Source of the DNA: Candidatus Hydrogenedentota bacterium
GTDB taxonomy: Bacteria; Hydrogenedentota; Hydrogenedentia; Hydrogenedentales; SLHB01
Assembly: GCA_029552745.1 (NCBI GenBank)
Contig: JAKPDK010000104.1
Span: forward strand, 1 to 59,951
Length of the DNA stretch: 59,951 nt
Direction of reading: 5' to 3'
Positions within the stretch are counted from its first letter, which is position 1. Every line of letters begins with the position of its first letter. Both the position numbers and the translations under genes were made by a program. Under the pieces are notes generated by a model that saw only the letters and a list, made by a program, of their open reading frames with translations, had not been told where the DNA came from and did no database searches. Of this stretch, positions 18,538 through 20,777 are shown piece by piece.

Positions 18538-19611
18538 ATGGCAAAAGGGACAATATACGATTCAGAACGGGCGATTTTTCGAGATGCTAGGTCGGGCTTG
18601 CGGATTTTTCGTTTGACCCACGGACCGTGTATCGCTACAAATCTGTACTTTGAGATGTGTTCGTTTACCTCCGATGACCGGTACGTTGTTTTTCGTTCCC
18701 AACGATTTGCGGGTAGAGGTGCGCCGTTCGATTTGTTTCGGGCGCGAACGGATGGTCTGGAGCTCGTCCAACTTACGGAAAGAGATGATTTAAGCGGTAT
18801 TGCATTTTGTTCCAAGAAACACTGTGCGTTTTATGTCAGCGAAGGCAAGGTTTTCTGTCTAGATATCCTGTCTTGGGAGGAAACCGTCATTGCAGAAGCG
18901 CCCCACCCCTCACCTGCTTATGCTGGTTCGCTTGGCGCCGTGGATCAGGAAGGACGGTTCTTTTTTTCGAACTGCCTGACGCCGGATGGGGACGCTGTGC
19001 TGTATCGGGTGGATGTTGCAAACAGTACAACGAAAACGATTTTCCAATGGAAGAGTCAAAACCACATTCACTGCGACCCAACCGGGGCGGTAGTATCGTT
19101 CAACCGCATAGACGCCGAGGGTTCTATACCCTATTTAGTGAATTCAGACGGAACCGATCCTCGTCCCTGGCATTTCCACAAATTCGCTCACTGCACCTGG
19201 TTTGGTACTACGGGGAAAATGCAGGGCACGCTTGTCCCTCCTGGCGATGCGATCGTTGTTGTCGGTGAACATGACCCGGCGCCCCAGTACCTGGCACGCG
19301 GGAGATATTATTGGCATAGTTCCGCCAGTTTGGATGCACAATGGATTGTTTCAGATACGAACTGGCCTGAAGAAGGCTTGTTCTTGGTGCATTGTCCCAC
19401 AGGTAACATAGGATATGTCTGCGAAACGAAGTCATCTTGTTCCCACCCGCAATGGACACATCCCCACCCTTCGGTCTCTCCGTGCATGCGTTACGTCCTT
19501 TTTAACTCTGACATGACTGGAGTCGGTCAAGTGTATCTGGCAGAGCTTACGGACGAGTTTCTGGAAAAGATCCAACAAGGGTACGAATGCAAGCCTGTGT
19601 TGTGGGCGTAA
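18538..19611 (+). CDS. Oligogalacturonate lyase-like / WD40-type beta-propeller protein
   Basis: A 357-aa cytoplasmic-looking protein (no signal peptide) made of repeated four-strand blades, for example LTHGPCIATNLYFEMCSFTSDDRYVVF and HPQWTHPHPSVSPCMRYVLFNSD. This recalls the seven-bladed propeller of oligogalacturonate lyases, which have a His-rich metal site. His residues cluster at NHIHCD, FHKFAHCTW and PQWTHPHPS. It might act on unsaturated uronates or oligosaccharides, but the substrate is an inference. The SD is GAGGA, 11 bp after lptG. Confidence 0.72.
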   Translation: MAKGTIYDSERAIFRDARSGLRIFRLTHGPCIATNLYFEMCSFTSDDRYVVFRSQRFAGRGAPFDLFRARTDGLELVQLTERDDLSGIAFCSKKHCAFYVSEGKVFCLDILSWEETVIAEAPHPSPAYAGSLGAVDQEGRFFFSNCLTPDGDAVLYRVDVANSTTKTIFQWKSQNHIHCDPTGAVVSFNRIDAEGSIPYLVNSDGTDPRPWHFHKFAHCTWFGTTGKMQGTLVPPGDAIVVVGEHDPAPQYLARGRYYWHSSASLDAQWIVSDTNWPEEGLFLVHCPTGNIGYVCETKSSCSHPQWTHPHPSVSPCMRYVLFNSDMTGVGQVYLAELTDEFLEKIQQGYECKPVLWA

Positions 19612-19648: not shown

Positions 19649-20347
19649 ATGCAAGTTAGATTGATAAAATCGTTTCATTTTGAAGCTGCTCACTGGAATC
19701 CTGTAGGCGGTGAAAAACAAAGACGTTTGCATGGTCATAGCTATCGGGTGGATATTCTGGTAACGGGAAATGTGGAGTCTCCGTGTGGATGGCTCTTGGA
19801 TTTTGCCGAAATAAGGACCGCGTTTGATCCTTGCCGTCATATGCTTGATCATGCGTTTTTGAATGAATTGCCTGGGATGGGAAATGCACGACTGCCCGAC
19901 GTCCGGCAGTGGATTCTAAATCGTCTTATTGGGGTTTTGCCGGGAACTGTGGACGTGCAAGTCGGAATCGTCGGAGATTGCGCATTTTTACCGAGGCGTT
20001 TAGCGGCAGACAGCCGACTCGCCTTGCCCGAACGAATTCGGTTCTCATTCGAAGCGGCGCAGGAATTGCCGCAATTGCCGGAGGGCCATCCTTGTCGCCG
20101 TCTTCATGGGCACAGTTACCGTGTGGAGGTGGGCGGCACCGATATGGCGACACTGGAACCCTTGCTGAAGAAGTTGTATGAAACGTTGGACCATCGCCAC
20201 CTGAACGAAATCAAGGGTTTGGAACATGCGACGAGCGAACGGCTAAGCGAATGGATTTGGAAGTGGTTGGTTGGCAGCGGTGTAACGCCGACGGTGGTGG
20301 TTGTGCAGGAAACGGAAACGGCAAGGTGTGTGTACTATGGCGAGTAA
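19649..20347 (+). CDS. queD: Tandem-domain 6-carboxytetrahydropterin synthase (QueD-like)
   Basis: A queuosine-pathway enzyme family of the 6-pyruvoyl-tetrahydropterin synthase fold, normally about 120 aa. Here two copies are fused in 232 aa. Domain 1 (1-115) keeps the three zinc histidines H15, H28 and H30 and the LDH pair (D67/H68). It has Gln in place of the catalytic Cys and lacks the C-terminal pterin-anchoring Glu. Domain 2 (130-232) has Cys149, H153, H155, D181/H182 and E221 but has lost the first zinc His (Q138). The start is ATG 19649 with AGGTGA upstream; a GTG at 19640 is possible. The queF ATG lies inside its 3' end, so the two are coupled. Confidence 0.88.
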   Translation: MQVRLIKSFHFEAAHWNPVGGEKQRRLHGHSYRVDILVTGNVESPCGWLLDFAEIRTAFDPCRHMLDHAFLNELPGMGNARLPDVRQWILNRLIGVLPGTVDVQVGIVGDCAFLPRRLAADSRLALPERIRFSFEAAQELPQLPEGHPCRRLHGHSYRVEVGGTDMATLEPLLKKLYETLDHRHLNEIKGLEHATSERLSEWIWKWLVGSGVTPTVVVVQETETARCVYYGE

Positions 20348-20777
20348 GAAAACCTCCAAGAAGAAAGTTGCCTTCAAAGCGTTGGATAAGACGTTGCCTT
20401 TCGTAGGTCCTGAGCATGTCGATTCCGGCTGCTTGGAGTGTTTTGAATATGAGTACGCAGAGGCTCCTCCTGGGGGAGATATTGAAATTACCACAACCAC
20501 GGATGAGTTCACTTCGGTGTGTCCTTTTTCGGGTTTGCCCGACTTTGCACGGGTGACGATTACCTATACGCCCGATCGACTGTGTATCGAGTTGAGGTCG
20601 CTGAAGTACTACCTGACATCGTACCGCAATGTGGGGATCTGGTATGAGCATTTGGTGAATAAGATGTTGGCAGACCTGGTAGCAGTTTGTAAGCCGAAGC
20701 GGATGAAAATCGTGATAGCGTGTAACCCACGAGGCGGCCTCGCCAGCACGGTTACCGCGGAATACGTTCGCGAGTGA
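20337..20777 (+). CDS. queF: NADPH-dependent 7-cyano-7-deazaguanine reductase
   Basis: A 146-aa unimodular QueF that reduces preQ0 to preQ1 in queuosine biosynthesis. The catalytic Cys is in TSVCPFSGLPDFA, followed by the conserved Asp of PDF. ELRSLKYYLTSYRNVGIWYEHLVNKM carries the substrate-binding Glu and the typical QueF motif. The preferred ATG 20337 lies inside the end of queD, with AAGGTG upstream. An in-frame start at 20301 is less likely. Its TGA overlaps the GTG start of the TauE-like gene. Confidence 0.94.
   Translation: MASKKTSKKKVAFKALDKTLPFVGPEHVDSGCLECFEYEYAEAPPGGDIEITTTTDEFTSVCPFSGLPDFARVTITYTPDRLCIELRSLKYYLTSYRNVGIWYEHLVNKMLADLVAVCKPKRMKIVIACNPRGGLASTVTAEYVRE

Follow-up and report, generated by a model that had tools for sequence, protein, structure and literature searches.

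The queD locus of a 59,951-nucleotide stretch of DNA from a Candidatus Hydrogenedentota bacterium (the whole of this stretch is hereafter the window) raises the question of how a queuosine enzyme might function when it consists of two fused domains, neither of which retains a full set of catalytic residues. The first-pass annotation had described the two halves as carrying complementary broken active sites, and translation confirmed each of the residues it listed: H15/H28/H30, Q24 and no anchoring Glu in the first domain (D1), together with Q138, C149, H153, H155 and E221 in the second (D2). The answer we favor, with a probability of roughly 80%, is a bimodular QueD, the queuosine enzyme that makes 6-carboxy-tetrahydropterin from dihydroneopterin triphosphate, in which the faces of the intersubunit active site are divided between the fused domains, such that D2 would supply the substrate and metal face and D1 the partner face. 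The features of the locus are collected in Table 1.

Table 1. Features of the tandem queD locus (positions are those of the window)
Feature	Position	Strand	Evidence
Bimodular QueD of 232 aa; a single frame encodes both PTPS/T-fold domains in tandem	19649..20347	+	Translation, PF01242, TIGR03367, AlphaFold2 model
D1 and start of linker, residues 1-121: H15/H28/H30, W48, D51 and D67-H68 present; Cys replaced by Q24, anchoring Glu absent	19649..20011	+	
D2, residues 122-232: C149, H153, H155, T195, E197, E221-T222, D181-H182; Q138 replaces the first zinc His	20012..20344	+	
Codons of D1 D67-H68, the pair that would complete the D2 site	19847..19852	+	D1 conservation
Codon of D2 Q138, position of the first zinc His	20060..20062	+	Sequence; D2 alignment, tree
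Codons of D2 C149-x3-H153-G-H155, the QueD signature CxxxHGH	20093..20113	+	Sequence, alignment
Codons of D2 E221-T222; E221 is the pterin-anchoring Glu	20309..20314	+	E and T in 59/59 D2
queF, unimodular, preQ1 synthase	20337..20777	+	TIGR03139, 121.8 bits (cut-off 86.9)

The tandem frame is open throughout, and the first ATG of queF at 20337 overlaps the queD stop codon, with 11 bases shared between the two genes (ATGGCGAGTAA). In profile searches, both halves of the protein matched PF01242 (128.7 bits for the whole, in two stretches), and the whole protein passed the QueD profile TIGR03367 with 117.3 bits against a cut-off of 89.25, a score that is the sum over both domains. The signature in D2 reads C149-RRL-H153-G-H155, and D1 has Gln in the place of the Cys. 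Where QueD has KETC, D1 has VGIVGD and consequently no anchoring Glu, while D2 has a deletion of the 11-residue Gly-Trp hairpin found in other QueDs. The Asp-His pair, of which the first-pass annotation made no use, is retained in both domains (D67-H68 and D181-H182). According to the available text of PMC5041015, PTPS-III proteins are marked by ExxHGH and PTPS-II proteins by CxxxxxHGH. Both motifs are absent from the window protein, as Arg occupies the PTPS-III position in both domains and H147 occupies the PTPS-II position in D2; it likewise contains no QueF motif and no match to PF14489, the family of bimodular QueF, PF01242 being the sole family matched. The protein therefore presents most of what identifies a QueD (PTPS-I), namely the CxxxHGH motif, the TIGR03367 score, an Asp-His pair with an anchoring Glu and surrounding queuosine genes, but it does not have a three-His zinc site in its Cys-bearing domain, where Q138/H153/H155 are found instead. 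In the phylum alignment, that three-His site is present in family f5 and in part of family f1. Judged by its residues, the window protein is best classed as a variant QueD and not a canonical one. The gene upstream of queD (18538-19611, + strand) has only a short match to the oligogalacturonate lyase family PF14583, near its end (37.8 bits, best stretch 305-339).

The tandem QueD is a phylum-wide form, as opposed to a local oddity or an artefact. Among 68 genomes of Candidatus Hydrogenedentota, all from a single order, a PTPS match was found in 60 and none in the remaining 8. Both domains lie in one frame in 57 of the 60, with 54 of these at full length and three truncated by the end of their contig (G003, G023 and G043). 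The other three genomes (G008, G042 and, in two pieces, G014) have halves that stand alone where a contig ends. A free-standing QueD was seen in none of the 68 genomes. This search for other tandems with the same split, which the first-pass annotation had suggested, also found both the Cys and the anchoring Glu missing from every scorable D1. Two more tandems were among the matches listed from Candidatus Hinthialibacteria, in OLB16 (locus L126) and H5_UNCL2 (locus L117), and a tandem of the QueD type was seen in no other of the 14 genomes in their phylum. With the 54 from Candidatus Hydrogenedentota (alignment A1), these give 56 full tandems for comparison. We found no account of a tandem QueD in the open-licence literature searched, and neither “tandem” nor “fused” occurs in the available text of PMC5041015.

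A domain alignment of D1s, D2s and single-domain QueDs, using E. coli numbering, reveals how consistently the residues are divided. Every catalytic residue is present in all 61 single-domain QueDs, a set of E. coli QueD and the 60 non-tandem loci in the best 80 of 229 confirmed matches, obtained with two scan patterns that favor HGHSY-type QueDs. Among the rows scorable at each position, D1 never has Cys27 (0/60) or Glu110 (0/59), and yet Trp51, Asp54 and His71 are invariant in it (61/61 each) and Asp70 nearly so (60/61). D2 has Cys27 in 60/61, His31 and His33 in 61/61, and Thr84, Glu86, Glu110 and Thr111 in 59/59 each, with the Asp-His pair less well preserved (Asp70 in 48/60, His71 in 42/60). 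The first zinc position of D2 is His16 in 18/60 and Gln in the other 42, a replacement found in 0/61 of the same single-domain QueDs, and the Gly-Trp hairpin is deleted in D2 but kept by all D1s. The arrangement noticed in the window is hence not a product of chance. When these residues are combined by protein, the Cys, two His and Glu of D2 together with the Asp and His of D1 are intact in 54 of the 56 full tandems, the exceptions being G026 (Cys to Arg in D2) and G009 (Asp to Glu in D1), which may be either sequence errors or real. The reverse set, with Cys/His/His/Glu from D1 and Asp/His from D2, is intact in 0/56, as is D1 alone, and D2 alone retains all residues, including His16 and thus three zinc His, in 14/56. 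The first-pass annotation had imagined a composite site across the domains, and this idea is well supported, but not for the residues it named: the D1 zinc triad with the D2 Cys and Glu is present in 39/56, the window included, and broken in 17/56, among them all 15 full members of family f3.

The division of residues follows the line along which PTPS subunits share their sites. In rat PTPS, one subunit contributes Cys42, Glu133 and the zinc His, whereas Asp88-His89 belong to a different subunit. Each PTPS active site is located between three adjacent monomers according to the available text of PMC7546909, which cites a 1995 paper by Burgisser whose title describes the catalytic triad as intersubunit. 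Since the triad is intersubunit, a pairing of the D1 Asp-His with the D2 Cys and Glu falls on this same line. In the proposed bimodular QueD, D2 would thus form the substrate and metal face with Cys149, His153, His155, Thr195/Glu197 and the anchoring Glu221, while Asp67-His68 of D1, together with the Gly47-Trp48...Asp51 hairpin, would enter the D2 site as the partner face and complete the catalytic triad. The other conceivable site, composed of the D1 zinc triad and the D2 Asp-His, would be dead, as its Cys and Glu are missing, and could be a remnant that has not yet decayed completely, or else a metal site without a catalytic role. Presumably, it is the D1-D2 pairing that forms the site, in which case half of the sites in each assembly would be used. 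As D2 of the window has lost one zinc His, the enzyme is not certain to be active.

The retention of an Asp-His pair in D2 suggests a simpler arrangement, in which D2 alone would be the enzyme, forming D2-D2 sites with its own Asp181-His182, and D1 would be a mere scaffold. This pair is kept in 37/56 full tandems, with the rest of the D2 face intact and the window included. However, it was lost on three branches, by Phe for His in OLB16, by Arg for His in genus g5 and again in family f3, and the D1 Asp-His was intact each time. Three such changes, like the two losses of the D1 zinc triad, are too few for statistics, but the D1 pair is preserved almost without exception, and D1 is the one domain that still has the Gly-Trp hairpin. 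We therefore consider a D2-only enzyme unlikely, although D2-D2 sites are conceivable in the 37 tandems that keep the D2 pair.

The genomic context bears upon a further alternative, in which the tandem PTPS would serve another reaction or pathway (e.g. folate, a PTPS-III-like activity or a new pterin product); a changed reaction had also been raised in the first-pass annotation. The remodeled D2 metal site is consistent with this, given its frequent Gln, the loss of Cys112 and the usual change of Lys26 to Pro, whereas the CxxxHGH motif, the absence of the PTPS-II and PTPS-III motifs and the queF gene directly downstream all argue against it. FolE, QueC, TGT and FolB were all found in the window's genome, FolB being near FolE. 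With FolE, QueC, TGT and queF the genome has the queuosine pathway, and with a canonical FolB it has the usual enzyme for the folate step. Across the phylum, FolB is present in 61/68 genomes. PTPS and QueF occur together in 57 of the 68 genomes, PTPS only in 3, QueF only in 2 and neither in 6 (Fisher p 2e-5, uncorrected for kinship), and in 37 of the 57 genomes with both, the gene directly downstream of the tandem queD is queF. The gene thus tracks queF, which agrees with the coupling suggested from the window alone, and with FolB serving folate, a changed reaction finds no support and appears quite improbable. Nor did a search of the window's own genome (a 4.36 Mb assembly, completeness 99.7%) find a second PTPS-family locus, and hence no separate canonical queD. 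In three other genomes more than 90% complete (G006, G007 and G021), the profile search found a full-length QueC with neither PTPS nor QueF above the cut-off; QueC may serve a purpose other than de novo queuosine in these organisms.

Based upon the phylogeny of the domains, several inferences can be made regarding the history of the split. Firstly, the D1s form one clade (99/98) and the D2s another (100/98), which marks the division as old and stable. The tandem may have originated either by duplication within one gene or by fusion of two QueDs, as a single clade of D1 plus D2 was neither recovered nor rejected (p-AU 0.30, from an alignment with few columns). Secondly, Gln16 of D2 arises once on the tree of the 56 tandems, in a clade (39 rows, 99/92) whose members have all retained it. 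Its conservation over long branches suggests that Gln at this position is functional. Cys112, which follows the Glu-Thr in D2, is present in 18/18 domains with His16 and in none with Gln16, and Lys26 is replaced by Pro in 36/42 of the Gln16 D2s; being one event on the tree, the joint appearance of Gln16 and loss of Cys112 gives no statistic of coupling. Thirdly, the D1 zinc triad was lost on two branches, in family f3 and in G047. In the 15 full members of f3, the D1 triad is mostly Arg/Thr/Asn and similar, and the Asp-His of D2 has given way to His-Asp, Asn-Gly, Asn-Asp and similar, with Gln still at the first zinc position of D2. The D1 Asp-His and the D2 Cys/His/His/Glu are each present in 15/15, and of the catalytic set only the Asp-His and the Gly-Trp...Asp remain in D1. 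As far as can be read from these residues, the division of the site is complete in f3. G047 mirrors the window, with Gln in place of the first zinc His in D1 and the His kept in D2.

The same family bears directly upon the composite first imagined, in which H15/H28/H30 of D1 would act with Cys149/Glu221 of D2. In favor of this composite, the D1 triad is among the most conserved positions of the domain outside f3 (40, 41 and 41 of 41), and both residue sets coexist in the majority of the full tandems. Yet the triad is broken throughout f3 even though the f3 D2 also has Gln at its first zinc position, and it is kept equally well where the D2 triad is complete (f5 except G047). Furthermore, the other two zinc His of D2 are invariant, which would be odd if the zinc were held in D1, and in PTPS the Cys, Glu and zinc ligands all derive from one subunit. 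A composite using the D1 zinc is consequently very improbable. Decay to a non-functional enzyme is scarcely credible, because, despite the broken residues in both domains and the 8/68 genomes without a PTPS match, the frames are open, few positions of the protein are as well conserved across the phylum as those of the split site, and this is the sole QueD in a complete genome that carries queF, QueC, FolE and TGT.

The metal sites of the two domains are nonetheless peculiar. His147 (E. coli His25) is invariant and lies in the same loop as Cys149, and we would guess from this that it is a candidate metal ligand. The D1 metal site outside f3 is probably structural or regulatory, since its triad is kept without the Cys or Glu. 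A tentative scheme, which we regard as possible but doubtful as a whole, would have the remaining site operate with a remodeled metal center. Its ligands would be Gln138-His153-His155 or, were His147 to shift inward from the GHPC loop, His147-His153-His155, and it might hold a metal other than zinc or depend upon zinc less strictly. In the same scheme, the D1 zinc triad would be non-catalytic in most lineages and a catalytic ring would be stacked on a helper ring.

An AlphaFold2 model of one chain, built from alignment A4 (40 sequences), has a pLDDT of 95.6 and a pTM of 0.89; it superseded a single-sequence model (pLDDT 57), which was dropped. Residues 2-111 of the modeled D1 align to E. coli QueD (4ntm_E) with Z 17.3 and rmsd 1.5 over 110 (VIA-align; Foldseek E 5e-11). 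By VIA-align, no more than a single domain of the model aligns to urate oxidase or to GTP cyclohydrolase IB, and Foldseek rows spanning both domains have a TM of about 0.2-0.3 with large rmsd, a weak hint that the modeled domain order may be unlike the side-by-side T-folds of those enzymes. Domains of two types could not follow each other in turn around a ring with three members, so the protein probably assembles either as a ring of three D2s on a ring of three D1s or as an even-membered ring.

Several known systems provide useful comparisons. E. coli QueD (4NTK, 4NTM, 4NTN, 3QN0) shares the fold, the CxxxHGH motif (in D2 here), the Asp-His, the Glu-Thr and nearby queuosine genes, but it is a single domain without a fused partner, has all residues in one chain and has His as its first zinc ligand. 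QueD2 of Acinetobacter baumannii (7V0F), a QueD paralogue that aligns to D2 at Z 9.2, likewise does not consist of two PTPS domains in tandem (target length 169). GTP cyclohydrolase IB has two T-folds per chain. The same is true of urate oxidase in the available text of PMC5138847, as in the tandem QueD, although the model matches a single domain of either enzyme, so the arrangement may differ. The 6-pyruvoyl-tetrahydropterin synthases of rat and Plasmodium resemble the tandem in their three-His zinc site, intersubunit triad and three-monomer sites (PMC7546909, available text), but are single-domain homohexamers with other motif spacing. A precedent for the organization is found within the same pathway. 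Bimodular QueF of E. coli and V. cholerae consists of tandem T-folds with Cys and Glu in one module and the partner motif in the other, making one interdomain site, and of its two modules the C-terminal one has retained the catalytic Cys while the N-terminal one has lost it (PMC5372742, available text). It thus resembles the tandem QueD in having its Cys in the C-terminal module, and its site between modules resembles the one proposed here, despite its being a member of another enzyme family (PF14489), a homodimer without a tunnel and the product of a separate fusion. In the window, it is QueF that is unimodular and QueD that is bimodular.

If the split is as proposed, the fate of QueF has been repeated in an enzyme that acts before it in the pathway, so that two T-fold families can be compared, and the tandems comprise a natural series leading from an enzyme with sites shared by identical subunits to a fused enzyme of two parts. 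In its first stage D2 is complete save for the Gly-Trp hairpin, in the second a zinc ligand is replaced, as in the window, and in the third, represented by f3, the division is total. The split also predicts which mutant halves should complement one another, and it raises the question of whether a metal site of Gln-His-His suffices for a working QueD. From a practical standpoint, the standard QueD profile accepts the tandem protein without revealing that half of its sites would be dead.

The phylum that includes the Hinthialibacteria has further PTPS relatives. Its single-domain members at loci L193-L196 (in G072, G079, G074 and G071) are of a distant HGHNW type and are not ordinary bacterial QueDs. 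There is also a second, separate tandem, PTPS-II-like and of the FGKCNN..HGHGH type, in G068 (L190:1453-2403, - strand) and G080 (C5:86841-87644), and as two adjacent frames in G069 (C45:181787-182587). Cys is missing at the catalytic place of the first domain in both G068 and G069 (FGKSA and FGAAA), and, from these motifs, this second tandem is possibly a parallel instance of the same site division.
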